Shown here: piece after piece, positions 14,951 to 63,320 of the stretch | Position numbering within the stretch: position 1 is the stretch's first letter | How the letters are laid out: the number at the start of each line of letters is the position of its first letter | Assembly: GCA_003550305.1 (NCBI GenBank) | Contig: QKYT01000283.1 | Location: 70,762-134,081, forward strand | Length of the DNA stretch: 63,320 nucleotides | Direction of reading: 5' to 3' | DNA from: Glomus cerebriforme | Lineage: Eukaryota > Glomeromycota > Glomeromycetes > Glomerales > Glomeraceae | The notes under the pieces: generated by a model | What the model was told of the DNA's origin: nothing | Seen by the model: only the letters and a program-made list of their open reading frames with translations | Database searches by the model: none | Translations under genes and position numbers: made by a program

Positions 14951-17900
14951 TCATTGTATGCTTTTCTCTTTCTTTCTTATGTAAGAAACCCAAAAGTTCT
15001 TTACTTTATTTTCAGAGCGCAATTTATTGAATTCATCTTCCATCTTTTTAATTATCTTTTTCCAGCTAATTTTCTCATCTGGTTTTAGTTTATTAATCTC
15101 TTGGATAATAAAATCTTTTTCTTTTTCGTCAAGAGGCTCATGACAAACTAATTAAAAGAAAAATTATCATTATTTTTTTTNNNNNNNNNNNNNNNNNNNN
15201 NNNNNNNNNNNNNNNNNNNNNNNNNNNNNNNNNNNNNNNNNNNNNNNNNNNNNNNNNNNNNNNNNNNNNNNNNNNNNNNNNNNNNNNNNNNNNNNNNNNN
15301 NNNNNNNNNNNNNNNNNNNNNNNNNNNNNNNNNNNNNNNNNNNNNNNNNNNNNNNNNNNNNNNNNNNNNNNNNNNNNNNNNNNNNNNNNNNNNNNNNNNN
15401 NNNNNNNNNNNNNNNNNNNNNNNNNNNNNNNNNNNNNNNNNNNNNNNNNNNNNNNNNGGTGATATATCCAGCTAAATTTTAGTAAAAAACCAAACAAAAT
15501 TTAAGAAAAATTAATTAACAAATTACTGTAGATCAATAATACGATATCTTACTGCTGCCGGATTTGTTTTGCACTATATAGAGGAATGAATCTACTAATC
15601 CTTGAAAAGCAATCAGATAAATGTCCCCATTCATTCATAAGCTCTATAATTTTATCATCAATCTACAAGAAAGAGTTTTTGTAAATCGAAAACGTAATAA
15701 ATAGATAAATACTATTTTTAAAAAAATAATAATAATGCGTACATTTTTAGGAAAGGTAGTTCTAAAAGTACTTTCAGCAATATTTATCGGTAAAACTAAA
15801 CCAATTTTATCATCTTTATCATCAATCTTTAAATTTTTATAATTTGTTGATAGAATACAAATGCGTAAATCTATTTCAATATTTGTTAAAGAATTGTTAT
15901 CTTCATCAATTTGGAGACTTGAAATAATTGCATTTGATCCTTTATAAGGTATCTGAATTATTCGAACATTAATAGACTCAACATTCCAATCAATAATATC
16001 AATAGGTTTATAGTTTGCTGAAGGGTATTCATGAACGAAAATAGTAAATCCTTGAGATAATGGAAAAGGAGCTTTAATATGATAATCTAATTGATTAGGT
16101 TGTAATGTAATTGATTTTGTAAAAAATTTAACCTGAACATTTCTATTCTTTGGACTATAAACTGATAATTTTGAAGGATTTCCAATAATCATCCATAAAA
16201 CATAACATTCTTTTATATCAATATTTATTTCCTCCGAATTTTTTATTATCGCGTAAAATCCGTTAAAGTCATATAATCCAAAATAAACATAAATTTTTTT
16301 CAATTTTGAAAAATCGGTCGAAATAATTGATCCAAATACTTCATAATCTTCATCTTCTAATGATGATTTTAAATTTATGCGTTTATAATGCTCAATATTT
16401 TTATTATCTAAATCTTCCAAATCAGTAATTCCTGTCATTATAATTTTAAAATCATTTTTTAACATATCATCTATTTTTCTTTGCTGTTTTATTTCAAGAA
16501 TTTTGTAGAGAGGAATGATATTATCAAATTCAATAGTCTCCAGATTATCATTCGCATCTTTAATCCAATTAGGTAAATCATCTTTTTCAATAATCTTTCC
16601 TTTTTGTGTTAAAAGATATGAAATATCTAATTTATCCAAATCTAGCTTTAATTTAGTTAGTGAATTTAAATCAATATTTCCATATGTAAAAGTGATCGGT
16701 AAACTCTTTCCTTCTTGTGCTAAAAGATATGAAATATCTAACTTATCCGCCGATTGTGTTTTTAATTCAGTTGACGAATTTAAATCAACATTTTCATGAG
16801 TTGAAGTGAATGGTAAAATATTTTTAAGAAATTTTCCTAAAATAATTCTTTGCGGAAATAAATGACCATATTCATTAAATACTTTTTGTAAAGCTTTTAA
16901 TGGTTTTATATTATTAAGTGCTTCTTCTATAGCTCGCTCAAATTCTTTTGTAGGTTTTATATAATCCTTATTTAATAGAATTTCATATTGTTCGCGTTTG
17001 ACCAGAATATGAACATAATCCCCACAACTTTTAGCATTAATTTTAATAAATGAAAAAGGTATTGCATTTTTAAATGAAAAGATATTATTTGATATTAATT
17101 TTTCTTCTAATTTAGTTGTCGGTTTCATTATTTTCAAATAAATTTTATCAGATAAATAAACTTCAGGGATTTTGATAAAGTCAATAGCAATTTTCTTACT
17201 ATTTTCTATTTTATAATTTTTATTAACTATTAACCCTTGAAAAAGTTGAAAATTTTTGGTCCAACTCGTTAAATTATTATGCATCGCATCTCCAACCCAT
17301 TCTTCTAAACTTAACTTTTCTTTAAAATTAGTTACTCCGGGTTGTTTTTCGTTAGAAGTTTCAAGGTTATCTATTGATGATGTACAGCTCATTAATTGAG
17401 AAATGGGGATAAGACTTTCATAAGAAACTATATACAATCTCGCTCTCTCTTTATATAAATTATTCATCCATATAGCTAACTTTTCATGAGTATCTAATTC
17501 TTTCCCATCCGATGTTACTATTTTTGGTAAGAGATTCAAGGCGAATGAATTATTGGATTGAATTTCCATAGAATTTTTAGCAAATATATATGCATAGAAT
17601 AAATATAATTTTAAAATATCAATCTGTGCTGAAGTAGCCAAATTAAAATCTTTGATAAATAATTGACTACCAACTAAAAATTTTCTTGCGAGAAAATGAC
17701 CAAACCATTCATGGGATGTTTTGTCAACATCCATATATTCTTGAAAAGATTCTACCAAATTACCATTGTAAATGATTTCAGTAATTGGAAAATTGATGCA
17801 TATATCCTTAGAATTTATATACGTGTATACTAAAGGTTGACCATCGTATAAACTCAATTTCAATTCTCCATTTTCAGCAACAATAGCCTGTGAACTTGGT

Positions 17901-19173
17901 TTTATATTACTCCCATCGCAACTTAATCCATAATTCAACCTAAAATCTCCAATTATTTGTTGTTCGCTCAATAATCTTTCACATATTTCTGCAACAAATT
18001 TCGCAACGCATGATTGACCAGTTTGATCAGATGGATCAGATTTATAATCTAAATCCATTAAATCATCAAAAGTATGCGGTGATGATTTATCAGGTATTTC
18101 TCTATAATCCAAATCCATAAAACTATCAACATTATATGTCATATGTTGTTCATTAATATTGAGACGTGATTTTAATTGAGATAAAATTTCATAAACTTCA
18201 TTTATTTCAGGTCTTAAATTTGGATCATCTTGCCAACACTTTTGATAAAGCTGTTGGTATTCCGGAGGTGCACCTTCAATCAGAGATTCTCTTTCGATAT
18301 GTCCTATTTGTATACTTGGAGGACGTCCACTTGACAATTCCCATAAAAGAATACCCAAGCTATAAATATCAGATTTCATATCTCGATTATAACTTGAATT
18401 ACGAAGGTACTGTGGTTCAATATAAGCTGCATCAAATGTTAATTTAGCTTCTTCCACTTGATTGAATAATCCAAATTCTGCAATCGATAATCTACCATGA
18501 TGAACCAATATGCTATATGCATGCTACAAACGGTAAATAATAATTAATATTTAAATATGATGTTAAAATTATTATTTAAAACCCTCCATTACCAAATCTC
18601 CATGAATTATTTTCTTAGAATGTAAACGCATTAATCCTTGAGTAATATCTAGAGCCATACGAACTTTATCGTCCCATTCTAATATACTGAATTTGTTTCT
18701 TAAATAATTTCTCAAACTTCCTTCGTTAGCATATTCCAGTACTAAAAAATAATTTGCATTCGAATCTATAATTTAAATATAAAAAATTATATGAGTATTG
18801 TGTTTTACAATTTGGATTACTATTTTAAAATTACAAAACCTTTCGTTATCCCAAAAGAACGATTGATGTTTGGATGAAAATAAACCATATGGAGAGCCCT
18901 TAACTACATACATAGTAAAATATAATTGTATATAAGTTTTTTAAATTTATTTACTCCTTTTTAGTGAACCATTTATACCTTTATAATATCATTATAAGTA
19001 ATAGTCGAATTTTTCAAATTTTTTAATGCAACGGTAATTTTTCGATTTTCCCAATTCGCTTTTTTCATAGGAGTCCGATATAAAAAAATATCTTCTAGAT
19101 TTCTAAATTCATTGTAATCAATATAACTGATCTCTCTATTATTTATCATTTCTTCAATCAAATAAAACTCCAT
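14951..19173 (-). CDS. Pseudokinase, MACPF-like, Myb-like fusion protein (crosses a gap)
   Basis: Minus-strand exons are 19173-18979, 18903-18840, 18765-18593, 18523-15743, 15662-15553, 15471 into the gap, and 15147-14951; the phases agree at every junction that can be tested. Residues 1 to about 250 are a kinase fold with a damaged active site: no glycine loop, HGDLHAYS where HRDLxxxN is expected, and EFG for DFG. A conserved unnamed module follows (about 320-560). A MACPF-like core has [12 protein letters not shown] at about residue 696, then a beta-rich domain. The long exon then splices in frame into sequence with two Myb repeats: the first ends AKQIRQHWIYH, the second carries NKVKNFW..YIRKK, matching the canonical Myb N-x-[IV]-K-N-x-W pattern. 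It faces the stand-alone MACPF-like gene 227 bases away. Fusion is inferred; a separate Myb gene starting inside this locus is possible but would lack a clear start. Confidence 0.68.
15181..15457. other. Assembly gap (277 N)
   Basis: A run of undetermined bases falling inside the Myb-coding 3' part of the minus-strand gene. The exon starting at 15471 runs into it, and the next recognisable exon begins at 15147. The linker between the two Myb repeats must lie here. Confidence 0.97.
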
Positions 19174-19400
19174 TTTTAAGCAAAGAATAGAGAAATTTAA
19201 ATTGTGGTGACTTTTCCATATGCATATTTTTAGCCGATGATAAATCACATGATTCGGAGTTTTTAATTGGTAAGACAGTACATAAATGATGTAATGATAT
19301 ACAACCTGCTGTAACGGTGTAACTAAGGGCGTTAAATAAATAAATCGATTTGTATTACAAAGTATATTCAAACAAATATTCGTTCAAAAAAAAACAAGAA
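19174..19400. promoter_or_regulatory. Shared divergent promoter region, cassette 1
   Basis: The 227 bases between two start codons that point away from each other (minus-strand ATG at 19173, plus-strand ATG at 19401). Both genes must be driven from here. It is the shortest of the four spacers and lacks the TTCTATTTTTGGG and ACGCCC motifs shared by the other three, so this is the most diverged pair. Confidence 0.55.
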
Positions 19401-21365
19401 ATGTCTTCAATATTTGTTAAAAATATAGATGAAAAAAAACTCAAATTATATCACTTAGATCTAATAGATAATTTATCCAATATTCGTAAAGAGCTCGAAA
19501 AACATAATACCATTAATGATATATTATCATTTTCAAAAAAATCTCCCGAAAACGAATTTGCTGAAATAGAACGTGAACATGAGGAAAAATTGCTTTTAAA
19601 AGATATTATAGATAATGTTAATTCGTGCAATTATTTATATTTAACAAAAAATTCAAGAGCGAATTGGAATATCTTGAATAAAAAATGTAAGTTAGATTAC
19701 GGACGTACTATGAGTTTTGATGGAATAAAGAAAGCTAACAATAGAGCATTTATAATGAAAAATTGTGAATTGACCGAAATTAATGCTGAAGGGTATAAAA
19801 AAGGTGAACTTGAATTTGAATCAAAAGAAGATTGGATGAAGAAAACAAATTTATTCCTTGATGACGATGATATTAATGTAATGAATTTTGTAAATTTGGG
19901 AATTTCAATAAAAGGATTGAAAGATGAAAATTTTAATAATGAAATTAAGTCAACTTATCGATATACAGAACTTGGTAAAGTAATAGTGAAATTTAATAGA
20001 GAAAATTTAGAACTTACTGATGACTTTAAAGATGATATCAGGGATGCCATAGGATCCAAAGATCCCAGAAAATTTAGGGAAATTATTAAGGAATATGGTC
20101 AATTCATTCCAACTGAAATTATTTTGGGAGGAAGAGTCTATTTTAAGGATGTCAAAATATCTTTAGAGAATTCTGCAGATAATTCTGTTGAAAGTTCTGT
20201 GAATGCAAGTTTTGGACCTTTTAATTTCAAAATAGGTTATAATTCTAACAATACAAGAAAAAAGTCAAAATTTTATAGTTCTAATCACATGAAATTACTT
20301 GGAGGAAAACATCCCGACGATGAAAATTTTGATGAAAAAGCTTGGATTGAATCCTTAGAAGATTATCAAAACTGGGATTGTATAGAATTTAAAAATCCAA
20401 TTAGTATTTTTCAACTTTTGCCTGATGATTTACGTAAGGAGTCCTTTGTATCTATTGGAAAAAGAATTCTTTATACAAGTACCGAAGATTATAATTATGA
20501 TTTATATGAACTTGGAAGACATGGAACTTTTGAATTAAGAAATATACCAGAAAATATATTAGAAATTATTCTCAATGAAGAAGCTGATTGTGATGCCTTT
20601 GCAACAGTCATTGATGCTGATGAAGTTTCAACAAACGTTTTTTTTAATTGTCAAATTCTTAGGAAACCAAAAGCAAAACCTAATATTATAATTCATGGTA
20701 TCCAAGAAGAATTTCAAAAATGTAAATATAAATTGAAAATTAAGATAATGATTATTGGATATGATATAAATTTTAATTTTATTCTTTCAGATACTATTGT
20801 TCAATTAAATAAAGAAGTCTATGATCCAGAAAGTCCATGTTTGTTTAATAATATGAAATTACAACTTGAACATGAGTTAATAACAGGAAATATTCCTTTT
20901 TTAGGATTTCCTATATTAGATAATTTGGATTCATCAAATAATTCCATTATTATTGGGCATAATTTTTGCAATACTCAATCAGATGATAAATTTAGAATAG
21001 ACACATTTTCTTATTGTATAAAAAACAAATTTTATGTAAATTTACCTAAATTTACTTTTTGCACCCTTATTATTTTAAATAGTAATACTTTTAATTCTTG
21101 TGAATCATTTCCTTTTAAATTTAACAAATGGAAGAAACCATTTATTGATTTTAAAGAATCTAATCCAAAATATATTAGTTTATATTGTTCAAAAGATAAT
21201 AATTATAATCCGATTTTTACAAGTCAAAGGGGAAGGGGAAAGCAAATTTGCATAGAATATGTAAATTGTAATTGTAACAAAACTTGTTTTATTTGTATGA
21301 ATAAAACATCAAAAATATCAACCAAACAAAATGATATTGAATGTAAGATTTTCTCTTTAAGGTAA
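19401..21365 (+). CDS. Stand-alone MACPF-like protein, 654 residues
   Basis: One long exon. The ATG at 19401 is chosen because the preceding 17 codons are low-complexity and the paralogues start at the equivalent place. Residues about 10-110 may be a beta-grasp-like module with a conserved L-x-D..L-S-x-I-R-K-E-L pattern. The MACPF-type core has YGQFIPTEIILGGR at about residue 232, matching the Y-G-x-x-[FY]-x5-LGG signature, followed by a serine-rich segment, then LGGxxPD and an AWIESLxDYxNW block typical of the MACPF C-terminal half. A beta-rich domain follows, and a CxCx3CxxC motif near the C-terminus may bind metal. MACPF proteins usually oligomerise on membranes and form pores; whether this one does is unknown. 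A possible terminal intron (donor near 21362, acceptor near 21434) would only alter the last few residues. There is no signal peptide, so a cytosolic site is likely. Confidence 0.85.
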   Translation: MSSIFVKNIDEKKLKLYHLDLIDNLSNIRKELEKHNTINDILSFSKKSPENEFAEIEREHEEKLLLKDIIDNVNSCNYLYLTKNSRANWNILNKKCKLDYGRTMSFDGIKKANNRAFIMKNCELTEINAEGYKKGELEFESKEDWMKKTNLFLDDDDINVMNFVNLGISIKGLKDENFNNEIKSTYRYTELGKVIVKFNRENLELTDDFKDDIRDAIGSKDPRKFREIIKEYGQFIPTEIILGGRVYFKDVKISLENSADNSVESSVNASFGPFNFKIGYNSNNTRKKSKFYSSNHMKLLGGKHPDDENFDEKAWIESLEDYQNWDCIEFKNPISIFQLLPDDLRKESFVSIGKRILYTSTEDYNYDLYELGRHGTFELRNIPENILEIILNEEADCDAFATVIDADEVSTNVFFNCQILRKPKAKPNIIIHGIQEEFQKCKYKLKIKIMIIGYDINFNFILSDTIVQLNKEVYDPESPCLFNNMKLQLEHELITGNIPFLGFPILDNLDSSNNSIIIGHNFCNTQSDDKFRIDTFSYCIKNKFYVNLPKFTFCTLIILNSNTFNSCESFPFKFNKWKKPFIDFKESNPKYISLYCSKDNNYNPIFTSQRGRGKQICIEYVNCNCNKTCFICMNKTSKISTKQNDIECKIFSLR

Positions 21366-26464: not shown

Positions 26465-26495
<31 letters not shown>

Positions 26496-26744: not shown

Positions 26745-29700
26745 ATGTCAAATGAAACCGACTTTAAAGAATCAAACGTTTATATTGATTGGTTAGAAAA
26801 TTCAATTACTAATGAATATTTAAATTATTATGAATATTCAGAATTTAAAAACATAGAACCGATAGGACGTGGTTCATATGGAAGTGTCGTTCGTGCTAAT
26901 TGGAAAAGTACCAATAGATTTTTCGCTTTAAAAACTTTTAATAATGATAAAATAACGTTAAAAGAAGTATTCAATGAGGTATGAAATTTATGATAATCTT
27001 AAATTTTGTAATAATTTTTTATTAACGAATTGAATTTTAAATTCATTGCAGATAAAATTACGAAGAGAGGTTTGTTTTAATGAAAATATTTTGCGATTCT
27101 ATGGGATTACAAAGATAGAAACTGGTGGGTTATAACATGTATTTATCATTAAGTTTCCTTTTAATATAAGCAAGATTTATTTTTCTTTTATAGATGCAGA
27201 GAAAAAATACTATTTACTAGTTTTGGAATATGCTGATGGCGGTACATTAAATAATTATTTAAATAATCATTTTAACGAACTTTGTTGGAGCGATAAATAT
27301 CTATTAGCATTTCAATTAGCAAGTGCCGTCGAATTTATGCATAATCGTGATATCATTCATCGTGACCTGGTAATTTATAAATTAATTTCTTCAATTTACT
27401 TTATTATAATTTTTTTTAAAATATTAACTTTTATTTAATTAAAAGCATGCAAACAATATACTTATACATCGGAAAAAAATTAAGGTAGCAGATTTTGGTT
27501 ACTCGAAACAAATTGCTGAATCAAATGATATGTCGGAATTGTTTGAGATAATACCTTATATAGATCCTAAAAGTTTTAATTATCATAGTTTTAATAAAAT
27601 CGAAATTTACGAGTTAAACAAAAAATCTGATGTGTATAGTGTAGGAGTTTTGATGTGGCAAATTTCAAGTGGATATCGACCTTTTTATCCAGAAGGTGTT
27701 CATTATGATATATCTTTAGTCTTAGCTATACGAGAAGGAAAAAGGGAAAAAATTATTGATTACACTCCTATTGAATATAGTAACTTATATACAGGTAATG
27801 ATATTTATCATCTTTTTAAAAATATTAATTCTTTAAAGAAAACCTTAACAATATTGAATTATAAATAGAATGTTGGAAATATGAACCAAATGAGCGTCCA
27901 AATATGCGGGATATTCTTTCAATCCTTAATAAGATAACATTTCCTGATAAAATTATTAATAAAGAATTGATGTTAAATAAAGAATTAAATGTTAGTAGTA
28001 TTAGCAACCCAATATCACAATTCCCCAAGAAAGATCAGGCCAAGCATGTCTTGGTGAATAACGAGGAGAAAAATGAGGAGCATTACGCATTTCAAACAAA
28101 TGCAATAATGGATCCCAAAATATATTCATCAAATATATCAATTCAACCGAATTTATCATATGTGTCAATATTTGACAAACTTAATAATATAGTTATTGAA
28201 AAGTTAATTACAGTTATAAATAGAAAATATGATAAAGAAGTCATTAATTTCAACCAATTTCAGCAGTTTATTAATCAACAAATATTGGAATTAAATCAAA
28301 GTCCAGATTACCTAATTAAATGGCTATCAAATAATCAAGATAATCCGCAAAATACTTATTTACTAGGATTATTTTATTATTATAATATTGGTATAAAAAA
28401 AAATAGCGTTGAAGCATTTAAATTATTTTTACAAGCATCTGAGAAAAATCATTCAATTGCACAAGTTTATCTTGGGAAATGTTATAATGATGGATATGGA
28501 ATTGAGTGCAATAAATATTTAGCATTTAATTGGTATCAGAAATCCACCGAGAATGAAAGCATTGTTGGTCAATTTTATTTAGGAACTTGTTATGAATATG
28601 GTATCGGAATTGTGAAGGATGTATTAAAATCAGTATATTGGTATCAAAAAGCAGCCAACAATGGAAATATGACCGCAAAACTTCATCTAGCAAATTGTTA
28701 TAGATTAGGAAAAGGAATTGATAAAGATGAGAAAAAAGCATTTGATTTAATAAAAAATTTAGCAGAAAAAGAATATGTAGATGCACAATTTCAACTTGGA
28801 TATTATCATTATAAAGGAATTGGAACTGAAGTTGATAAATCAAAAGCATATGAAGTATACAAAATAACTGCAGATAAAGGTTATGATGATGCAATATATA
28901 ATTTAAGTATATTATATCAATTAGGAGAAGGAATTGATAAAAATGAGAAAAAAGCATTTGACTTAATAAAAAATCTAGCAGAAAAAGAAGATTTAAATGC
29001 TCAATTTCAACTTGGATATTATCATAATAAAGGAATTGGAACTGAAGTTGATAAATTAAAAGCATATGAATTATACAGAATAGCTGCAGAAAAAGGTCAT
29101 AATGATGCACAATATAATTTGAGCAAATGTTATGAATTAGGAAAAGGGATTGATAAAGATGAGAAAAAAGCGTTTGAATTAGTAAAAAATTTAGCAGAAA
29201 AAGAATACTTAAATGCTCAATTTCAACTTGGATATTATTATGATAAAGGAATTGGAACTGAAGTTAATAAATCAAAAGCATATGAATTATACAAAATAGC
29301 TGCAAAAAAAGGACACATTATTGCAAAATACAATTTAAGTTTATTATATCAATTAGGAGAAGGTGTTGATAAAGATGAGAAAAAAGCATTTGAATCAATA
29401 AAAAATTTAGCAGAAAAAGAATATATAAATGCTCAATTTCAACTTGGATATTATTATGATAATGGAATTGGAACTGAAGTTAATAAATCAAAAGCATATG
29501 AATTATACAAAGTAGCTGCAGAAAAAGGTCATGATGATGCACAATATAATTTGGGCAAATGCTACGAATTAGGAAAAGGGATTGATAAAGATGAGAAAAA
29601 AGCGTTTGAATTAATAAAAAATCTAGCAGAACAAGAATATTTAAATGCTCAATTTCAACTTGGATATTATTATGATGAAGGAATTGGAACTGAAGTTAAT

Positions 29701-36492: not shown

Positions 36493-36597
36493 CTTATAAA
36501 TTAGGATTCTGCACGTTACTTCCAGGCACGTGCGGGACCACAAGAGTTAATAGTGCTCTTGAAGAACCCTACTTCTAATGGGACCCGTTCACTTACC

Positions 36598-46800: not shown

Positions 46801-49038
46801 CATTGAATTATAATATGCTTAAAACCTTCATAATTTTTAGCATTGCTTTCAATAAATGGAAGAGCTTTTAAATTTTCAATTGTATAAATGTTATTAGATA
46901 TTAAAGTAAATTCAAATTTTGTTAATGGTTTAATCATTTTCAACGAAGATTTATTACTTGAATTAACTTTAGGAATTTCAATAATATTAATAGGAATTTT
47001 CTTGCTAAGTTCTATTTCGTCACTTTCATTAACTATTAATCCCCGAAAAAGATTGAAATCTCTGGTCCAACTCATCAGATTATCGTTCACCGCATCTCCA
47101 ACCCACTCTTCCAAACATAACTTCTCTTTAAAATTAGTAATTCCACATAGTTTTTCGTTAAAAGCTTCAAGGTGATCATTATCTATCAATGATGTACTAT
47201 ATTTTAATTGAGAAATGGGAATAGGATTAATATAAGAAATTATATCAACCATTTTCTTTTGATATAAATTATTCATCCATGCGGCTAATTTTTCATGAGT
47301 ATTTAACTTTTCTCCACCCAATGTTTCTATCCTTGGTAAAAGATTCAAGGTGTATAAATTGCTGAATTGAATTTCTGTAGAATATTTGGCGGAATTATAT
47401 GTACAGAATAAATAAAACTTTAAAATATCTTTTTGTGTTGGAGTGGCCAAATTAAAATCTTTGATAAATAATTGACCGCCGGCTAAAAATTTTCTTGCAA
47501 AAAAATCACCATATAAATCACATAATTTCTTTTCATCATCTGAATACTTTAAAAAAGATTCTAACAAATTAGCATTATAAATGATTTCAACAACTGGAAA
47601 ATTAATACATGTATCTAAAGTGTTGTCACCATTCCTTTCAGAATTAATACACGTGTATACTATAGGTTGTCCTTTGTACAAATTCAATTTTAATTCACCA
47701 TCTTCAACAGCAACTGCTTGCATACTCGGTCGTATATTATACTCAGTTAAAATTAAACCATGATTCAATTTAAATTGACTAATGATTTGTTGCGTTGTTA
47801 ATGAACTTTTAAATATTTCCAGAGTATTTGTTTCTGTATATGATGGTGATTTATTATCATCAGAAGTCGAAGAAAAACTTTTATCATATGCTTCTACTTG
47901 ATTATTAAGTTGTTCATTAGTATCGAATTGTAATTTAAATTGAGATAAAATTTCGTGAACCTCGTTAATTTCAGGCCTTAGGCTTGGATCATCTTGCCAG
48001 CATTTTTGGTAAAGACGTAGATATTCCAAAGGTGTATTTTCAACTGGATCCTCTCTTTCTCCATTTAAAAGATTTTTTTCTATTTGAGCTAAATCAAATG
48101 CTTCTTGCATGTAATTAGAAAATGGAGGACGTCCGCTTGACAATTCCCATAAAAGAACCCCTAAGCTATAAATATCGGACTTCATATCTTGCTCGTAACT
48201 TGAATTGTGAAGATACTGTGGCTCAACATAAGCTATATTTTCAAAAGTAACATCTGTTATTTGCCGGAATAATCTTAAATCCGTCATCATTACTATACCA
48301 TTTTTAATCAATACATTATGTCCAGACTTTACAACAAAAAAAAAAAATAAATAAAAATATAAAAATCGATATTAATTAAGACATTAATTAAATAACGAAA
48401 CCAAAAAATCAAATTAAAATTTTATTTACCAAATTCCCATGAATAACTCTTTCAGAATGTAAATGCATCAATCCACGAGTAATATCCAATGCCATTTGGA
48501 TTTTGTCATCCCATTTTAAAGTACTAAATTTGTTTTTTAAATAATCTCTTAAATTTCCATTGTTAGAATATTCCCATATTGAAAAATATTTCCCATACAA
48601 GCCTAATTATAAAAATATATACATCATTAGCATTAGCATAAAATGCAGTAAATTTTATTGAATATTCTATTCATCACATACCTTTCGTTAACCCGTGAAA
48701 ACGATTGATATTTGGATGATTAATATTACGAAAAGCTTTTACCTACATAGTAAAATAAAACTTAATATTTAATAATCTCTCCTAATAAGCCTAACAAGTA
48801 AAATCAATATTATTAATCATACCTTGTCAATAAATTCGTTAAAACAACTTTCAGTAATTTTTGAATTATTTAAATCTTTTAGTACAACAGTAATTTTTCG
48901 ACCTTCCCAATTAGCTTTTTTTAAAGTCCCATTGATTCTGTTGTCAATTTTTTCTAAATTGTTAAATTTACTATAATCAAAGCAATTAATATCTTCTCTA
49001 TTTGCCCTTTCATCAATCCATTCTTTCAAAAGTTTCAT
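43854..49038 (-). CDS. Pseudokinase, MACPF-like, Sel1 array protein (3' end in gap)
   Basis: Minus-strand exons are 49038-48823, 48742-48682, 48602-48430, and 48326 into the gap at 43854; exons 2 and 3 have exactly the same lengths (61 and 173) as in the gene at 56715. The kinase fold (1 to about 290) lacks a glycine loop (KIDNRINGTLKKA), has HGNL for HRDL and DLR for DFG, so it is a predicted pseudokinase, though VVLK keeps its Lys. The unnamed module follows, then the MACPF-like core with YGHLLPQRFILG near residue 700, an NWIQNTNNHLELIEF block, the beta-rich domain to about 1030, and at least 17 Sel1 repeats of 36 residues. It is transcribed divergently from the stand-alone MACPF-like gene at 49411, 372 bases away. 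It may continue through the gap into the kinase ending at 41215, which would make one protein of well over 2,000 residues. Confidence 0.83.
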
Positions 49039-49410
49039 TTTGAAAATTTTGAAATAAGAATAAGAATATTTATTTGTAGTTGATACAAAAAACGTGATTT
49101 ATAATTTTCTATTTTTGGGAAACAAGAAGTCTCAGATGACAAAAATAATCATGTAGTTCTTTCCTTTTTGTGATAATTCCAGCCAGAATTACAATGCCGC
49201 TCTGAAGATCCGAGTATCTACCTATTTTACTGTTATTAAACACCCCCCGTAGATATTTATACTTGGCCTGCATTAAAGATGCGTTAGGCCGGCATTATAT
49301 TCGAAAAGGGGGGTACTTAATAACGAGATAATATTTATTATATATTTATTTGTGTAATCAAACCTTTTATATAAAGTAACATTTAAAAAAAAACGCCCTT
49401 AATTTTAAAA
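49039..49410. promoter_or_regulatory. Shared divergent promoter region, cassette 2
   Basis: 372 bases between opposed start codons. It carries TTCTATTTTTGGG followed by ACAAGA at 49107-49126 and AAACGCCCTTAA at 49391-49402, just before the plus-strand ATG. Both recur in the equivalent spacers near 56.8-57.06 kb and 62.9-63.18 kb. A CCGCTCTGAA / CCGGCTCTGAA block is also shared with the 63 kb spacer. The first motif lies nearer the minus-strand gene, the second next to the plus-strand gene. Confidence 0.6.
49232..49324. mobile_element. Palindromic MITE-like insertion in the divergent promoter
   Basis: A 93-base sequence with inverted ends GTTATTAAACACCCCCC / GTTATTAAGTACCCCCC (15 of 17 match) and an inner palindrome around GGCCT..AGGCC. 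No equivalent is present in the spacers at 56.7 or 62.9 kb, which is consistent with insertion after the cassettes duplicated. The target-site duplication is unclear. Confidence 0.55.
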
Positions 49411-51381
49411 ATGTCATTGAAAAAAATTATAGTATTTATTAAAGTTATAGGCGTCTCGTCATTACAAAGTTCTACTATAAAAAAATTAAGTCCAGATGAT
49501 CATTTACCTGATATTCGTAAAGAACTCGAAAATAATGATATCATTAATGATATGCTATTATTTTCAATAAAAGAAAACGACGAATTTGGTGAAATTGGTC
49601 GTAAGGAAGAAAAAAATTTTAATTTAAAAGAAATTATAACGATCAACGATGATCGGAATATTTTATATTTAAAACGACTTACTTGGAAATTTTTGAGTAG
49701 TCAGTGCGAACTAAATTTTGGACGCACTATGAGTTCTAATGGAATTAAAACAGCTAAAAAACCAGCATTTGAAATGAAAGATTGTATATTAAATGAAATT
49801 AATAAATTTAATAGAGGCGAACTTGTATTTGGATCAAAAGAGGATTGGATGAAGAAAAAAAATTTATTTATTAATGTTGATGGTATCAAAATTACAAATT
49901 TTGTACATTTTGGATTATCAGTTGAAAGTTCACAAAATGAAAATATTAATGAAGAAGTTAATTCAACTTTTCTATATACAGAAGTTGGCAAGGTATCATT
50001 AAAATTTAGCAAAGAAAATCTAGAATTAACTGATGACTTTAAAGATGACGTGAATAATGCCATACAATCCAAAGATCTTGGAGATTTTAGGAAAATTACT
50101 GAAAAATACGGACAATTTATTCCAACTAAAGTTATTTTGGGAGGGAGGGTTTATTTCAAGCAAATCGCGAAGTCAATTGATAATTCTACAGATTGTTCTA
50201 AAGGAGGTTCTGTAAATGCAAGTATTGGATCTTCAACACTCAAAGTGGGATATAATTCTAGTGAGTCAGAAAGAAATTTAAAATTTTATAATTTTAATCA
50301 CACGGGATTACTTGGAGGAAACAATCCTGATGATGAAAAAGCTTGGATTGAATCTTTAAAGAATTATCAAAATTGGAAATGTATAGAATTTAAAGATCCT
50401 ATTAATATTTTTCAACTTTTACCTGATGATTTACGTAAAGGATCCTTTAAATCTATTGGGAAAAAAGTCCTTTATAAAGATATTAATAATTGTTATTATA
50501 ATATAAATAAACCTGGGTCGTACCGAAATTTTGAATTAAAAGAATTAAAAAATATTCCACAAAATATTTTAGACACTATTCAAAATGAAGAAGCTGATTG
50601 TGACATTTTTGCAGCGGTTTTTGATACTAATGAGGAATCAAAAAAAGTTTTTTTCAACTGTCAAATCCTTAGAAGACCAAATATGAAACCAAGTATTATA
50701 ATTCATGGTATTCAAAAAAATTTTCAAAGATGTAAATATAATTTGAAAATTAAGATAATGGTTGTCGGTTATGATATAGATTTTAATATTATACTTCCGG
50801 ATATGATTAGTGTTGACTTAATAAAAGAAAAATATGATTCGCAAGGTCAACTTGAGTTTGATAGTATTCCATTACAACGTGAACTTAGCTCAATGATGAC
50901 AAATGGTATTCCTTTTTTTGGAATTCCTATATTAGACAATTTGGAAAATAATTCCATAGTCATTGGACACAATTTTTGCGACACTCAAAACAATAAATGT
51001 AATATAGATGTATTTTCCTATTGCGTGAAAAAAAAGTGTTATTATAAATTACCCAAGCTTACTTTTTGCACACTTATTATTTCTGATTTCCCTGCTTCTA
51101 ATTTTTATAGATCACTTTCTTTTAATTTTAAAATATTAAAAACCCCATTTATTGGTCTTGATCCTTGTAGTATAAATCCAAAATGCATTAGTTTATATCT
51201 AACGAAAAATGACAATTATAACAATTATAAACCAATTTTTTTGGATCAAAAAATTAAACAAATTAAGATTAAATACGTTGATTGTAATTGTAAGAAAACT
51301 TGCTTTATCTGTAAGAACAAAACAGTAAGAATATCAAAAGATGAAAATAATGCTGAATGTATATTCTTTGAGATAATATAA
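49411..51381 (+). CDS. Stand-alone MACPF-like protein, 656 residues
   Basis: A single exon starting at a Met that aligns with the starts at 57077 and 63193. The N-terminus KKIIVFIKVIG then LSPDDHLPDIRKEL may be a beta-grasp-like fold. The MACPF-type core has YGQFIPTKVILGGR from residue 233, then a glycine/serine segment, LLGGNNPD and an AWIESLKNYQNW block. The beta-rich C-terminal domain contains a CDIFAA strand and IIIHGIQ. A Cys motif at C625, C627, C631 and C634 ends the protein. No signal peptide or membrane helix is seen. It is very similar to the 57077 product. The divergent partner is the giant pseudokinase gene. Its role is not established; oligomeric membrane insertion is the family's usual activity. 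Confidence 0.87.
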   Translation: MSLKKIIVFIKVIGVSSLQSSTIKKLSPDDHLPDIRKELENNDIINDMLLFSIKENDEFGEIGRKEEKNFNLKEIITINDDRNILYLKRLTWKFLSSQCELNFGRTMSSNGIKTAKKPAFEMKDCILNEINKFNRGELVFGSKEDWMKKKNLFINVDGIKITNFVHFGLSVESSQNENINEEVNSTFLYTEVGKVSLKFSKENLELTDDFKDDVNNAIQSKDLGDFRKITEKYGQFIPTKVILGGRVYFKQIAKSIDNSTDCSKGGSVNASIGSSTLKVGYNSSESERNLKFYNFNHTGLLGGNNPDDEKAWIESLKNYQNWKCIEFKDPINIFQLLPDDLRKGSFKSIGKKVLYKDINNCYYNINKPGSYRNFELKELKNIPQNILDTIQNEEADCDIFAAVFDTNEESKKVFFNCQILRRPNMKPSIIIHGIQKNFQRCKYNLKIKIMVVGYDIDFNIILPDMISVDLIKEKYDSQGQLEFDSIPLQRELSSMMTNGIPFFGIPILDNLENNSIVIGHNFCDTQNNKCNIDVFSYCVKKKCYYKLPKLTFCTLIISDFPASNFYRSLSFNFKILKTPFIGLDPCSINPKCISLYLTKNDNYNNYKPIFLDQKIKQIKIKYVDCNCKKTCFICKNKTVRISKDENNAECIFFEII

Positions 51382-52355: not shown

Positions 52356-55300
52356 TTAGACAAGAGATTCTCGAAACACATTATCAATAAAGTTTATGTC
52401 CTGTACTATATGTTTATCATATAATTTCTGTAGCATATTGAAAATATGCTGAACAACTGGACGTAATGATGGTGCTTGATCCCAAGCAAGTTTAATAATT
52501 GAATAATATCCTTTTTGGATAGAATTAGAACATGATTCAGTGTCTAATGTTTCTCTACCTCCATTTGAAACATGCTTTAGTATTTCCATCATAGTCATTT
52601 CTTCATATGGCTTTCTTTGAAAATCAAGCTCCCAAAGGAGCATACCAAGACTAAAAATTTCACATTGAGTAGTATATATAAAATCTTCTTGTAGTATGCT
52701 ATTCTTTGAAATACATTTTAATTCCTCAGGAGCCGACCAGTTTATCCTATCATCAATATTATCGATAGGTTGCGAGATAACATTAAATTTATGAGACAAA
52801 TCAAAGTTTGAAATCTTAGCTTGCATTTTTTCTGTAATCAGAATATTTTTGCATCTTAGATCATGGTGAAGAATATTCACGCTATGCAAAAAAGCTAAGC
52901 CACGGCAGATATCTCTTGCAATTGAAATCTTTACTTCCCATCTAATATTATTGTGTTTAAGATATACTTCTCTTAAAGTTCCATATTCGGCCCATTCTAA
53001 AACCATTACATTTTCTCCATTTATTTCTGATAGACCATGAAATAGAATAACATATGGACAAGCTTCCAACATTCCCAAAATATTAAGATGATTTTGAACA
53101 CTTTCAGTATTGTATTTAGATACATGTCTACAAGCAACGTCCATCGCGTGATAAACTTTTTTTTGAATTATTATTCTGCTACCTTTACGTGGAAGAACAT
53201 ATTGTGGAGTATCTTTCAATTCTGAAGGCATAATTCGTTTAGATTCTCTTGCAAAAGTTTGATTTTCTATTCTTTCAATAACATATGAAGTAATACTATT
53301 CATGTCATCATTTACTAATGTATTCGATGTATTCGATGTATTTAATGTATTACCACTGTGTCTTGTTCTAAAATTATTTAATATAATAGTTGAGACATTT
53401 TCGGCCAAATATCCTACATTTTTAAGATCAATAACTATATTTTTATGATCAATCTTTATATTTTTATGATTCATAAATATTGCACAAATATGCAATTCTA
53501 TATCGATAGCTGTTTCAATACCTGTTAAAGAATAATGCTGACATTTAGAATTATTTGAACTAGTAGACTCATAATCTGATTGGATTATTTGAATATTAAT
53601 AAAATTATCATTCATCACTGAAACTGACTTAATAATATTAATAGGTGCATAATTTGCTGATGAATGATATGCATGAACGAAAACAGTATCGCTATAACTG
53701 AGATTACGGGGATGGTGTGAAGGAGCTTCAATATGATAGCATAATTGATCAGATTGTAATGTGATATGATCTTTAATACAAATGACTTGGATTTCTCGAT
53801 TCTTTGGACTAAAAACAGACAATTTTGAGGGTTTTCCAATAATCATCCATAAAACATAACATTTTGTTATATCAATACTTGTTTCTTTCAATTTTTTTAT
53901 TATTGCATAAAATCCATTAAAGTCATATAATCCAAAATTAACACAAATTTCTTCCAATTTTGTATTATTATTTGAAATAATTGATCCAAATACTTCATAA
54001 TCTTCACCTTCCAATGATGGTTCTATATTTATACGTTTGTGGTGCTCAACATTATTATTATCTAAATCTTCCAAATCAGTAATTCCTGTCATTATAATTC
54101 TCATTTTTTCTTCTATTTCTTGGTTATCTTTTAATATATCATCTATCTTTTTTTGTTGTTCTGCTTCAAGTATTTTATAGAGAGGGTTGATATTATCGAA
54201 TTCAATGAATTCCAGATAATTATTTGTATTTTGAATCCAATCAGGTAAATCATTTGTTTCGATAATTCTTCCTTTTTGTGTTAAAAAATATGCAATATTT
54301 AAATTATCTAAATAAGGTTTTAATGATTCAAAGATTGTTGATTCTAAATTAATCGTATCAAGAGTACTATTTGGTAAAATATTTTTAAAAGACATTCCTA
54401 ATACAATTCTCTGCGGAAATAAATGACCATATTCATTAAATACTTCTTGTAAAGCTTTTAATGGCTTCATACTATTAAGTGCTTTTTCTATATCATTTTC
54501 AAATTCTTTTGTAGGTTTTATACTATCCTCATTTAAAAGGATTTCATATTGCTCACATTTAATTATAATATGTTTATAACCTTCATAACTTTTATCATTA
54601 CTTTTAATAAATGGAAAAGAATTCAAGTTATTGATTGAAAAAATATTATTTGAGATTAAAGTAAATTCTAATTTTGTTAATGGCTTAAACATTTTCAGAT
54701 AAAATTTATTACTTAAATTAACTTTAGGTATTTCAATAATATTAATGGCAAATTTTTTGCTAAGTTCTATTTCGTCATTTTTATTATATATTAATCCCCG
54801 AAAAAGATTGAAATCACTGGTCCAACTCATTAGATTATCGTTGACCGCTTCTCCAACCCATTCTTCTAAACTCAACTTTCTTCGAAATTAGTAATTCCAG
54901 GTTGCTTGTCGTTAAAAGTTTCAAGGATATCGTCCATCGATGATGTACTACATTTTATTTGAGAAATGGGAATAGGATTAATATAAGAAATTATATCGAC
55001 CATTTTTTTTTGATATAAATTATTCATCCATATGGTTAATTTTTCATGAGTATTTAACTTTTCTCCGTCTAAAGTTTCTATCCTTGGTAAAAGATTCAAT
55101 GTGAATAAATTGCTGAATTGAATTTCTGTAGAATATTTAGCTGAACTATATATGCAGAATAAATAAAATTTTAAAATATCTTTTTGTGTTTGAGTGGCTA
55201 AATTAAAATCTTTAATAAATAGTTGACCACCAGCTAAAAATTTTCTTGTAAAAAAATCACCATACAATTCATGTAATTTCTTTTCATCATCTGAATAATT

Positions 55301-56715
55301 TAAGAAAGATACTAACAAATCGCCATTATAAATGATCTCGGCTACTGGAAAATTAATGCACGTATCTAAAGTGTTATTACCATTCTCTTTAGAACTAATA
55401 CACGTGTAGACTATAGGTTGTCCTTTGAATAAATTCATTTTTAATTCGCCATCTTCAACAGCAACTGCTTGTACGCTTGGTCGTATATTATATCCAGTTA
55501 AAAAACCATGATTTAAATTGAAATGTTTAATTATTTGTTGCGTTGTCAATGAACTATTAAATATTTGCAAAGAATCAGGAGTTGGTCTATTACAATATAC
55601 TAATAATTTGTCATCAAGTAGTAAATTAAATTGAGATAAAATTTCGTAAACTTCGTTAATTTCAGGTCTTAGATTTGGATCATCTTGCCAGCACTTTTGA
55701 TAAAGACGTAGATATTTCAAAGGTGTATTTTCAACTGGATCCTCTCTTTCTCCATTTAAAAGTATTTTTTTTATTTGAGCTACACTAAATGCTTTTTGTA
55801 TATAATTAGAAAAGGGAGGACGTTCACTTGATAATTCCCATAAAAGAGTACCCAAGCTATAAATATCAGACTTTATATCTTGCTCGTAACTTGAATTATG
55901 AAGATACTGTGGTTCAACATATGCAATATTTTCAAAAGTGACTTCTGTTACTTGCTTGAATAATCTCAGGTCTGTCATCATTATTATACCATTATTAACT
56001 ACTACGTTATATGTATGCTTTAGATAAAAAAAAAATATTATAATAATCAAATATCAATTAAGACATTAAATAACGATAAACAAAAATCAAAAGTTTTTAT
56101 TTACCAAATTTCCATGAGTAACTTTTTTGGAGTGCAAACACATTAATCCACGAGTAATATCCAGTGCCATCCTAATTTTATCATCCCATCTTAACGTATT
56201 AAATTTATTTTTTAAATAATCTCTTAAATTTCCATCGTTAGCATGTTCCCATATTGAAAAATAATTTCCATTCGAGTCTATATTTTAAATATATAAATAA
56301 TTAACATTAGCATAAAACGCATTAAATTTTATTATATCGCACTATAGAATTTATTCATTACAAACCTCTCGTTAACCCGTGAAAACGATTAATATTTGGA
56401 TGATTGATTTTACGAAAAGCTTCCAACTATACGGTCGGTAGAACAAAATTTTGATATTTAATAATTCCTCTTAACAAGTAAAATTACTATTATTCATCAT
56501 ACCTTGTCGATAAATCCTTTAAAATAACTTTCAGTAATTTTTGGATTCTTTAAATTTTTCAGTACGACAGTAATTTTCCGACTTTCCCAATTCGCTTTTT
56601 TTAAAGTCCCAATTCTTTTGTCGATTTTTTCTAAATTGTTAAATTCGTTAAAATCAAAACAATCAATATCTTCCCCATTTACCCTTTCGTCAATCCATTC
56701 TTTCAAAAGTTTCAT
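52356..56715 (-). CDS. Pseudokinase, MACPF-like, second kinase-like domain protein (one frame break)
   Basis: Minus-strand exons are 56715-56503, 56426-56366, 56277-56105 and 56017-52356, about 1370 residues. The N-terminal kinase fold has HGNL for HRDL, DLR for DFG and no glycine loop. The shared module and a MACPF-like core follow ([12 protein letters not shown] near 677), then the beta-rich domain. After an Asn/Ser/Thr linker comes a second kinase-like domain of another subfamily: VACR in place of VAIK, HHDLRCKN, NFD for DFG, SAPEEL, FSLGMLLWELDF and AWDQAPSLRP. It keeps the catalytic-loop Asp but lacks the Lys and DFG Asp, so it may also be a pseudokinase. One base is missing in an A run (plus-strand T run near 54877-54879), splitting otherwise fully open frames of 392 and 839 codons. 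I think a sequence error or a very recent mutation is more likely than old decay. It faces the stand-alone gene at 57077. Confidence 0.83.
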
Positions 56716-57076
56716 TATAGAACAAGGAATTTAGAAAAAATTATTCGTTGGAAAGAAATATTCCATTGGTCATATTTGTTTATTATACAATATTCTATTT
56801 TTGGGTGATAAGATGTACTCAGCAGATCGTCCATTTTAGGAAATAAGAAAATTATGTAACATCATTGCTTAGAAAATGACGTTATTTCTGGCCCTGTGGC
56901 GCAAAGATTACCTTCTTGACCTTCTAGTGTTACCCCTACATATTATATATGTAAAGGAAGTAAGTCGTACAGGTAAAGAAGGCCCCTGTTTGTTTGTGTA
57001 ATAAAATTGAGTACGTTCAACAACTTTTTAATAAATATACGGTGAAAGTAAAACGCCCCCAAAATTTTTTTTAAAA
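56716..57076. promoter_or_regulatory. Shared divergent promoter region, cassette 3
   Basis: 361 bases between opposed start codons. TTCTATTTTTGGG is at 56793-56805, followed by a TGATAAGA variant of the downstream part. AAACGCCCCCAAAATTTT is at 57051-57068, next to the plus-strand ATG. The middle contains an imperfect inverted repeat (ACCTTCTTGACC.. / GTAAAGAAGG) near 56910-56985. Confidence 0.6.
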
Positions 57077-59053
57077 ATGTCTACAAAAAAAATTATAGTA
57101 TTTATTAAAGTTATAAGCGACTCGTCATTACAAAATTCTACTATAAAAAAATTAAGTCCAGATGAATATTTATCCGATATTCGTAAAGAACTTGAAAATA
57201 ATATCATTAATAATGATATGCTATTATTTTCAAAAGAAGCAGGCAACGAGTTTTGTGCAATTGATCGTAAGGATGAAGAAAACTTTTATTTAAAAGAAAT
57301 TTTGACAATCAACAATGATCAGAATATTTTATATTTAAAACGGCTTACTTGGAAATTTTTGGGTAGTCAATGTAAACTAAATTATGGACGCACAATGAGT
57401 TCTGATGGAATTAAGACAGCCAAAAAACCAGCATTTATGATGAAAGATTGCATGTTAAATGAAATTAATAAATTTGATAAGGGCGAACTTAGGTTTAGAT
57501 CAAAAGAGGATTGGATGAGGAAAAAAAATTTATTTATTAACGTTGATGGTATTAGCGTAACAAATTATGTTAATTTTGGCCTATCATTTGAAAGTTCACA
57601 AAATGAAAATATCGATGATGAAATTAGTTCAACCTTTCAATATACAGAAATTGGTAAAGTGGCATTGAAATTTAGTAAAGAAAATCTAGAATTAACTGAT
57701 GACTTTAAAAATGACGTGAATAATGCCATACAATCCAAAGATTTTGGAGATTTTAAGAAAATTACTGAAAAATATGGCCAATTCATTCCAACTGAAGTTA
57801 TTTTGGGAGGAAGGGTTTATTTTAAACAAATTACAAAGTCATTAGATCATTCTATAGATATTTCTAATGGAAGTTCAGCAAATGTAAGTATTGGACCTTC
57901 AACGCTCAAAGTGGGATATAATTCTAGTGAGTCAGAAAGAAATTTAAAATTCTATAATTTTAATCACACTGGGTTGCTTGGAGGAAACAATCCTGATGAT
58001 GAAAAAGCTTGGATTGAATCTTTAAAGGATTATCAAAATTGGAAATGCATAGATTTTAAAGATCCTATTAATATTTTTCAACTTTTACCTGATGATCTAC
58101 GTAAAGAATCCTTTAAATCTATTGGGAAAAAAGTCCTTTATACAAATATTGATTATTGTTATTTTAATTTAAATGAACTTGGATCATATCGAACTTTTGA
58201 ATTGAAAAACATTCCACAAAATATCTTAGACACAATTCAAAATGAAGAAGCTGATTGTGACATCTTTGCAGCGGCTCTTGATACTAATAAAGATTCAAAA
58301 AACGTTTGTTTTAGCTGTCAAATTCTCAGACAACCAAAAACAAAACCAAGTATTATAATACATGGTATTCAAAGAAATTTTCAAAAATATAAATATGATT
58401 TGAAAATTAAGATAATGGTTGTTGGTTATGATATAGATTTCAATATCATACTTCCAAATATGATTAGAGTTGACTTAATAAGAGGAGTATATGATTCACA
58501 AAGTCAACTTGAGTTTGAAAGTATACCATTACAACGCGAACTTAGCTCAATGATAACAAGTGGTATTCCTTTTTTTGGAATTCCTATATTAGAAAATTTG
58601 GATTCTTCAAATAATTCCATTGTCATTGGACATAATTTTTGCAATCCTCAATTAAATGAATTTAATGTAAATGTATTTTCTTATTGTTTGAAAAAGAAGC
58701 GTTATGATAAATTACCCAAGTTTAGTTTTTGTACATTTATTATTTCTGATTGTCCTACTTATAATTTTTATAAATCACTTTCTTTTAATTTTGGGATATT
58801 GAAAAGCCCATATATTGATCTTGATCCTTATAGTATAAATCCAAAATGCATTAGTTTATATATATCAAAGAATAATAATTATAAACCAATTTTTTTGAAT
58901 CAAAAGATTAAACAAATTAAGATAAAATATGTTGATTGTAATTGTAAGAAAACTTGTTTTGTTTGTAAGAACAAAACACTAAAAATATCAAAAGGCGAAA
59001 GTAATGTTGAATGTGTATTTTTTGATCCGCCTAATATTACTATTAGTAATTAA
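57077..59053 (+). CDS. Stand-alone MACPF-like protein, 658 residues
   Basis: A close paralogue of the 49411 product over its whole length, in one exon. The N-terminus is KKIIVFIKVIS and LSPDEYLSDIRKEL. YGQFIPTEVILGGR begins at residue 233, followed by LLGGNNPD and an AWIESLKDYQNW block, the beta-rich domain with IIIHGIQ, and a CNCKKTCFVCKNK motif close to the C-terminus. No secretion signal is present. Its divergent partner is the pseudokinase/MACPF/kinase-like gene at 56715. Together with the 49411 pair it shows that the whole two-gene unit was duplicated, since both partners match across the two loci. Confidence 0.87.
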   Translation: MSTKKIIVFIKVISDSSLQNSTIKKLSPDEYLSDIRKELENNIINNDMLLFSKEAGNEFCAIDRKDEENFYLKEILTINNDQNILYLKRLTWKFLGSQCKLNYGRTMSSDGIKTAKKPAFMMKDCMLNEINKFDKGELRFRSKEDWMRKKNLFINVDGISVTNYVNFGLSFESSQNENIDDEISSTFQYTEIGKVALKFSKENLELTDDFKNDVNNAIQSKDFGDFKKITEKYGQFIPTEVILGGRVYFKQITKSLDHSIDISNGSSANVSIGPSTLKVGYNSSESERNLKFYNFNHTGLLGGNNPDDEKAWIESLKDYQNWKCIDFKDPINIFQLLPDDLRKESFKSIGKKVLYTNIDYCYFNLNELGSYRTFELKNIPQNILDTIQNEEADCDIFAAALDTNKDSKNVCFSCQILRQPKTKPSIIIHGIQRNFQKYKYDLKIKIMVVGYDIDFNIILPNMIRVDLIRGVYDSQSQLEFESIPLQRELSSMITSGIPFFGIPILENLDSSNNSIVIGHNFCNPQLNEFNVNVFSYCLKKKRYDKLPKFSFCTFIISDCPTYNFYKSLSFNFGILKSPYIDLDPYSINPKCISLYISKNNNYKPIFLNQKIKQIKIKYVDCNCKKTCFVCKNKTLKISKGESNVECVFFDPPNITISN

Positions 59054-61525: not shown

Positions 61526-62890
61526 AGATATTCAACTTTTCTCCATCCAATGTTTCTATTCTGAATATTTAGTTGAATTATGTGCAAAGAATAGATAAAA
61601 TTTCAAAATATCAATTTGTGTTTGAGTGGCTAAATTGAAATAATTGGCCATCGACTAAAAATTCGCTTGCAACAAATCACCACACAATTCATTTTCATCA
61701 TCTGTATATTCGAAAAAATATTCTACAGTTGCAAGTTGCATCAATTATTTCGAACAACTGGAAAATTGATGCATGTATCCAATGGTCCATTATCTTTAGA
61801 ATTAATACACGTGCATACATTAGGTTGTCCTTTATATAAATTCATTTTTAATTCGCCATCTTCAATAGCAACAGCTTTTATGCTTGGTCGCATATTATAA
61901 TTAAACCATGATTCAGCCTAGTTATTTGTGTTGTTAATAACTTTTAAATCTTTCGGGAGTAATTTTCTCAGTATGTGACAATGATCGATCACCATTATCA
62001 GAAGTCTGAAGAGAAAATTGTTCCATATGCTATTCGAGTATATTAAGTTTTCAAGCCTTAAATTTGGATCATCTTGCCAGCACTTTTGATGTGTGTATTT
62101 CGGCTGGGTTCTCCCTTCCTCCATTTAAAATTTTTTTTATTTGAGCTAAACCAAATGTTTTTGTATATAACTAGAAAGAGAGGACGTACACTTGACAATT
62201 CCCATAAAAGAATACTAGCTATAAACAATTCTTGCTCGTAACCTGGATTGTGAAGACAATGTGGTTCAAGATATACAAGATAGACTATATTTTCAAAACT
62301 ATCTTCTACCGTTTGTTTGAATCCTAATTATTGCTATATCACTGCTAACCAATATGTTATATGCATGCTTTACGATAGAAAAAAATGATAACATTTACTA
62401 TCAATTAAGAATTAAATAACGATAATCAAAAATTAAATTAAAATTTTTATTTACCACCTTTTTGGAATGTAAACACATTAAATCCACGAGCAATACCCAG
62501 TCCCATTTGAATTTTATCATACCATTTTAATGTATTAAATTCGTTTTTAAATAAACCCTTAAATTTCCATTATTAGCATATCACATTATTAAAATTCAAT
62601 CTAACATTTTTGTAGCTCCTGATAATGACCTCTTGTTAACCATGAATACGATTGATATTTGGATGATTAATTTACGAATGTTTTCAACTAATTACGTGGT
62701 AAAATAAATTTTAATATTTAATGGTCTCTCTTAGCAAGCAAAATTAATATTATTCATCATGCATACCTTGTTAATAAATTTTTTTTTAAAGTCCCATGAA
62801 TTCTGTTGTCAATTTTTCTAAATTTTTAAATTAATTATAATCAAAGTGTCAATATCTTCTATTTCGCCAAATTTATTTTTTCAAATTTAA
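61526..62890 (-). pseudogene. Ruined copy of the pseudokinase/MACPF gene 5' part
   Basis: Recognisable minus-strand pieces occur in the same order as in the genes at 49038 and 56715: N-terminal exon (62790-62880), the HPNINR-type exon (about 62640-62690), the exon with the LRxYLK-like hinge (62450-62590), the YVEPQ / SLG.LLWELS / CWQDDPNLR region (61920-62380), and the start of the shared module (61526-61910). Small deletions and frame changes interrupt it many times and no long frame survives; for example, only a few repeat-free residues around HQKCWQDDPNLR remain in frame. Everything after the start of the shared module, including the MACPF-like core, is absent. Its neighbour at 63193 still looks open. 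Confidence 0.85.
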
Positions 62891-63192
62891 GAATAAGAAA
62901 ATTATTTGTGATCAGAACGGAAATCAATATTTATTTATATTTTTCTATTTTTGGGTTACAAGAGTGTTACAAGAGGTTTCGGAATTCGGATTTTGCATAG
63001 AATGATAAAATAATTTACTTTTTGTAATAATGCTAGCAGAATTACATAATGCCGGCTCTGAAAATCTAGACTAAGTAAATGTGCGCCGATATATATTTGT
63101 TTGTCTTACAGTAATCATAAAATTGGTATGTTGAACAAAACTTTTATATAAATGAAATAACGTACAAAAAACGCCCTTAATTTTTTTAAAAA
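62891..63192. promoter_or_regulatory. Divergent spacer, cassette 4
   Basis: About 300 bases between the ruined minus-strand copy and the plus-strand start. TTCTATTTTTGGG with a TTACAAGA continuation is at 62943-62963 and AAACGCCCTTAA at 63169-63180. It also shares AGAATTACA.AATGCCG.CTCTGAA with the 49 kb spacer. The minus-strand half survives although its gene is dead. Confidence 0.6.
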
Positions 63193-63320
63193 ATGACCTC
63201 GAAAGAAAAAAAAATTATGGTGTTTATTAAAGTTATAGGCGACTCATCATTACAAAGGTCTCCTATAAGAAAATTAAATCCAGAAGATTGTTTATCCAAT
63301 ATTCGTAAAGAACTCGAAAA
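63193..63320 (+). CDS. Stand-alone MACPF-like protein, 5' end only (cut by window edge)
   Basis: The first 42 codons of a fourth head-to-head stand-alone copy. The ATG at 63193 lies 21 bases after the shared CGCCC motif. The visible residues contain KVIGDSSLQ and LNPEDCLSNIRKEL, matching the N-termini at 49411 and 57077. The frame is open to the window end, so nothing can be said about the MACPF core. Confidence 0.8.
   Translation, partial: MTSKEKKIMVFIKVIGDSSLQRSPIRKLNPEDCLSNIRKELE

Follow-up and report, generated by a model that had tools for sequence, protein, structure and literature searches.

How arbuscular mycorrhizal fungi distinguish self from non-self, and how their multinucleate hyphae and resident bacteria are defended, is to our knowledge still an open question, and a segment of the Glomus cerebriforme genome raises the question of whether a perforin-like protein and a kinase-bearing relative could serve such a role. 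The segment (contig QKYT01000283.1, assembly GCA_003550305.1, positions 70,762–134,081 of the forward strand; 63,320 bp running to the contig end, hereafter the window, whose numbering is used below) contains repeated pairs of a stand-alone MACPF gene, here named A1, and a larger gene, A2, encoding a kinase-bearing MACPF-like relative, most of them transcribed back to back. A search of the whole genome (112.5 Mb in 1117 contigs) shows that A1 and A2 are paired beyond chance. The pairs have the look of a switch for cell death or defence built into the fungus, and we consider the chances evenly balanced that they constitute a lineage-specific, intracellular two-component MACPF module with A1 as the executor and A2 as the regulator.

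The window contains four complete A1 genes, all on the plus strand with starts at 19401, 34437, 49411 and 57077; in a Pfam scan all four exceed the curated cut-offs of two MACPF families, PF01823 and PF22693, and match DUF7431 (PF24209) with E-values no higher than 2.5e-107. Three A2 genes lie on the minus strand divergent to A1, and one is on the plus strand upstream of the A1 gene at 34437. The A2 genes encode kinase and/or Sel1 repeats followed by a core of ~700 residues, after which two copies add Sel1 repeats or a second kinase. The original prediction placed divergent pairs at 19.2, 49.0–49.4 and 56.7–57.1 kb, and these coordinates hold, with ATG-to-ATG spacers of 227, 372 and 361 bp respectively. 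In the first pair, the A2 partner has a first exon encoding a degenerate kinase N-lobe (18976–19173, minus strand; 57% identity over 54 aa to the 57-kb copy) and a main open reading frame (15644–18379, minus strand; Pfam and profile search) with the kinase C-lobe and a MACPF-like core at 15791–18004; it is separated by the spacer at 19174–19400 from A1 gene 1 (19401–21365, plus strand), which has a ubiquitin-like fold, MACPF and DUF7431 (Pfam and predicted fold). The product of A1 gene 1 is identical (100% over 100% of its length) to a database protein from Glomus (Rhizophagus) cerebriforme. The 49-kb A2 (43065–48290, minus strand, with a run of N at 43104–43853) encodes a kinase C-lobe, a core at 45660–47834 and Sel1 repeats, with its first exon at 48820–49038 (minus strand), and faces A1 gene 3 (49411–51381, plus strand) across the spacer at 49039–49410. 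The 57-kb A2 (52356–55981, minus strand) encodes a kinase C-lobe, the core (53430–55567) and a second, C-terminal kinase in two open reading frames (52356–54830 and 54872–55981) whose frames differ; its first exon (56500–56715, minus strand) and the spacer at 56716–57076 precede A1 gene 4 (57077–59053, plus strand). The frame change within this core (54872–54887) could be a sequence error, a short intron or a real break. Profile searches place the A1 matches beside the divergent A2 genes at 19401, 49429 and 57095, all on the plus strand (A1 genes 3 and 4 also by Pfam).

There is also a tandem pair, not previously named, in which an A2 gene with Sel1 repeats and a core at 30481–32616 (27904–32679, plus strand) is followed by A1 gene 2 (34437–36578, plus strand), both identified by Pfam and profile search; a degenerate kinase exon upstream (26787–26978, plus strand; 36% identity over 64 aa, E 1.2e-8) is probably part of the same A2 gene. 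A fourth divergent pair had been proposed at 62.9–63.2 kb and traces of both partners are indeed there, but the A2 has decayed to pieces with broken frames at 61562–61642, 61753–61902 and ~62.8 kb (outer limits of the scattered matches 61562–62845, minus strand), and the adjoining A1 start is truncated by the contig end (63193–63320, plus strand, with the start codon counted from the translation; 73% identity over 37 aa to A1 gene 4).

Genome-wide there are 39 A1 starts (43 DUF7431 matches less five fragments or broken rows, plus the gene at the contig end), and we took as A2 those 21 of the 53 PF22693 matches (E up to 10) that are confined to the central motif, with E-values up to 0.2; the full A2 profile confirms six of the 21, four in the window and those at loci L052 and L059. 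Thirteen A2 matches lie within 5 kb of the nearest A1 start, and 12 of these are divergent, one is tandem and none convergent. When position and strand were randomised within the same contigs (with the sizes of two, C1110 and C349, assumed), the mean was 1.27 divergent pairs and 12 was never reached in 20,000 trials, and the predicted excess of divergent adjacency is thus borne out in this genome. Divergent pairs are present on seven of the ten contigs holding A2 matches.

Relatives in other species were drawn from the best 120 of 263 and the best 120 of 215 matches in the two family searches, in which the only named sources are Rhizophagus/Glomus and Funneliformis. Adjacency in these species was read from locus tags, with orientation known from the window genome only. 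Among the matches listed, five of 12 R. clarus A2 rows with RclHR1 tags have an A1 at the neighbouring tag (27170001/2, 10830001/2, 01340019/18, 04300015/14 and 09420001/2), and Funneliformis mosseae adds a sixth such pair, 9905/9906. Comparison of A1 and A2 distance matrices by Mantel test gives r=0.81 for ten tag-adjacent or window pairs, and 0.63 for a set of 23 pairs that adds nine inferred from equal-sized contigs (a weaker criterion) and four of six fusions, leaves out contigs with several candidates, and uses one of the two A1 genes flanking 01340019; values are 0.78 for 19 pairs without fusions and 0.59 for 19 without the window (p 0.0001 throughout). For nine of the 23 pairs, A1 and A2 agree on which pair is nearest. 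These correlations add support to co-evolution of co-located partners across species. Six proteins (P0097, P0144, P0192, P0194, P0200 and P0218) fuse A1 and A2 in one chain, of which P0097 has part of A2 and P0194 part of A1. We also note that in P0071 an A1 is fused to an intact-looking kinase.

Could the adjacency be a by-product of local duplication, with fast-expanding families clustering near transposons and sharing no joint function? Both families are clustered on few contigs, the 49-kb and 57-kb pairs are duplicates (80% identical in A1 and 72% in A2), and kinase and Sel1 genes of R. irregularis lie close to MULE elements (PMC8647823). Duplication of this kind does not readily account for 12 of 13 nearby A2 being divergent, for the spread of these pairs over most A2-bearing contigs, for partner distances that agree between species or for the fusions, and we regard it as a rather improbable explanation. 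The sequence TTCTATTTTTGGG is common to three duplicate spacers. The motif ACGCCC was considered as a common promoter element and rejected, as it is directly upstream of two recent duplicates, yet only two of 28 A1 starts have it within the 60 bp that precede them.

Other arrangements around A1 were also seen. At L001, L004 and L006 (C689 32.1–35.6 kb; C346 117.1–120.6 and 124.0–127.5 kb) the divergent partner of A1 is itself a distant relative of A1, with estimated starts 341–676 bp apart; elsewhere that place is taken by an RNA-dependent RNA polymerase gene (C920, L051:408–3305, plus strand) and by a kinase with a P-loop NTPase stretch behind it (C260, L054:1852–3500, plus strand). A2- or A1-type matches at C260:80876, C260:90421 and C704:16987 are in open frames of 3379, 2221 and 3416 codons, possibly giant fusions, and frames near A1 at L056:1062–1791 (minus strand) resemble, by eye, a Tc1/mariner-type transposase.

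Structure prediction and fold search give a MACPF fold for both A1 and the A2 core, as anticipated, and the two families are homologous in profile comparison (probability 97.4, E 1.2e-11). The window A2 partners fall below the PF22693 cut-off; the A2 part of P0144 is above it (57.5 bits), and 43 of 54 aligned A2 members match at E<=0.001. By both fold and profile comparison the best match of each protein is pleurotolysin B, which invites the view that the pairs encode a secreted bicomponent cytolysin of the aegerolysin/pleurotolysin B type, directed at soil animals or bacteria, with the divergent arrangement simply co-expressing the toxin halves; fungal aegerolysin/MACPF genes are likewise paired 5'-5' (PMC9505663). 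We consider this fairly unlikely, given that a large kinase/Sel1 protein stands in the place of an aegerolysin as partner, that none of the window proteins scanned with Pfam has an aegerolysin domain, and that by a rough test a strongly hydrophobic N-terminus is present in just five of 120 listed A1 and three of 120 listed A2 proteins, a test that unconventional secretion would escape.

The MACPF-type signature bears on which partner would act on membranes. A single pattern, Y-G-x-x-F-x5-[IV]-x-LG, had been proposed for both proteins; each does carry a signature of this type, but the pattern is not exact for both, being YGQFI-x6-GG in A1 and YGHLF-x6-G[RK] in A2. The second glycine is present in 110 of 120 listed and 78 of 80 aligned A1 proteins, and the main A2 signature is mostly G-R or G-K, with the second glycine in 11 of 119 found by pattern and two of 54 aligned (a first count of 69 of 118 had mixed in an additional N-terminal signature, later separated). 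The GG hinge is important for pore formation in cholesterol-dependent cytolysins. The presumed TMH2 (second transmembrane hairpin) span is longer in A1 (median 73 residues, n=79) than in A2 (median 54.5, n=54). The additional A2 signature, YGHF-x-x6-GG, often retains GG and is frequently ~280 residues before the main one, and profile comparison weakly suggests a second partial MACPF module. The presence of two such signatures in many A2 cores, together with MLKL_N on some A2 relatives, would suit a reversal of roles in which A2 is the executor and A1 an inhibitor or membrane adaptor; since it is A1 that retains GG and the longer TMH2 span, and the main A2 signature usually does not, we find this quite unlikely.

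The kinase of A2 was proposed to be a pseudokinase, and the residue counts support this assignment. The core is preceded by over 120 residues in 74 of the 120 listed A2 relatives, and in 43 of the 74 a kinase match spans 120 residues or more; 23 were set aside for gaps, and of the 20 that align at each of VAIK-K, HRD-D and DFG-D, 19 lack one or more of these catalytic residues. The catalytic loops in the window have HGD with EFG once and HGN with TDLR twice. The appended domains vary, and A2 cores in other Rhizophagus are fused to GBP (P0146, P0183), AIG1-type GTPase (P0185, P0197) and Argonaute domains (P0201); MLKL_N is present above the cut-off in P0147 and below it in P0150. The G. cerebriforme genome has 29 MLKL_N matches, of which three are within 5 kb of A1 versus 0.12 expected, two of them (C627 and C497) below the family cut-off. 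At the former (L040:4809–7600, minus strand) an MLKL_N-kinase-Sel1 locus (MLKL_N 23.1 bits, cut-off 27) is divergent to an A1-type MACPF gene at 8851 (plus strand).

The reading we prefer, drawn by analogy from the NLR/HeLo and protease/gasdermin clusters of fungi and from the 5'-5' aegerolysin/MACPF pairs, is that A1 is an executor inside the cell and A2 its MACPF-derived, pseudokinase-bearing regulator. A1, with its ubiquitin-like N-domain, MACPF and DUF7431 beta domain, would be the likely pore former, and A2, a distant A1 relative, may be a regulator derived from a pore former and joined to a degenerate kinase and variable domains. On meeting a signal through these appended domains, A2 would either hold A1 inactive or nucleate its oligomerisation, and A1 would breach membranes, the fungus's own or an intruder's; divergent transcription would match the dosage of the partners and favour their joint inheritance. 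The idea of a fungal self/non-self or defence module in which the kinase-bearing partner controls the MACPF protein is, as a whole, partly supported. More tentatively, the Glomeraceae may possess an NLR-independent intracellular immune or allorecognition repertoire with the MACPF core as receptor scaffold, in which tandem-MACPF pseudokinases (A2) with swappable sensors (Sel1, GBP, AIG1, MLKL_N, Argonaute and second kinases) license the cognate divergent A1 to bring about the death of the hypha or of an endobacterium, a possibility that we think somewhat doubtful.

Several observations weigh against the executor–regulator interpretation. With positions fixed and A2 strands alone randomised, 12 divergent pairs were reached in 38 of 20,000 trials, a weaker result, and because several pairs are recent duplicates the counts are not independent; similarly, the Mantel correlations may be raised by the shared species tree. 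No divergent A2 match accompanies 27 of the 39 A1 starts, which suggests that A1 can do without a neighbouring A2, with the qualification that the A2 list is incomplete (L027 has an unlisted A2 core in tandem with A1); in ten stretches upstream of A1 read directly, A2 was seen in two and not in seven, and L053 ends before its listed A2. The kinase and Sel1 families have in any case undergone expansion in this lineage, and the TMH2 span of the first window A2 partner is long (91), unlike the A2 median. Finally, the presumed A1 TMH regions have no excess of amphipathic beta pattern (43 of 80 and 47 of 80 exceed the mean of their shuffles; for A2 TMH2 one sequence was usable). This last result, and the presence of astrotactin-2 among the fold matches, would fit non-lytic proteins with developmental or adhesion roles whose pairing coordinates growth signalling; some MACPF relatives, astrotactin-2 among them, are not known to form pores. 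A1 and A2 do not resemble conserved developmental genes in being expanded and clustered and in the variety of their appended domains, and we regard a non-lytic role as very improbable.

In the open-access literature searched we found no description of A1/A2 pairs and no hit to DUF7431; a possible partial forerunner is the report of MLKL-family homologues with Sel1 repeats exclusively in Glomeromycotina (PMC8778642). Like the necroptosis pseudokinase MLKL, A2 joins a degenerate kinase to a membrane-acting type of domain, and MLKL_N itself is found in the A2 relatives noted above, but here the membrane domain is MACPF-like, and the MLKL_N four-helix bundle (PF22215) was not found in the window partner open reading frames scanned. 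The divergent sensor/executor logic recalls the head-to-head paired plant NLRs (PMC12258605), from which the pairs differ in that NB-ARC, NACHT and LRR were not found in the window proteins scanned. The pleurotolysin B/aegerolysin cytolysins share with A1 and A2 the MACPF fold, two components and 5'-5' gene pairs; here, by contrast, the partner is a degenerate-kinase/MACPF multidomain protein, and A1 has a ubiquitin-like N-domain and DUF7431. In the fungal two-gene cell-death clusters NWD2/het-S, PNT1/hellp and protease/gasdermin a multidomain sensor-type gene is likewise clustered with a membrane-acting executor, as described in a review (PMC12881547) in whose main text the words MACPF and perforin are not found; the executor here is instead MACPF, and NLR, HeLo and gasdermin domains were not seen in the window pairs. 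A recurrent, clustered perforin-like executor with a pseudokinase relative is a concrete, testable candidate for self/non-self recognition or defence in arbuscular mycorrhizal fungi and, if the favoured reading is correct, would extend the two-gene cell-death modules known for HeLo and gasdermin to MACPF proteins, with a regulator itself derived from a pore former.

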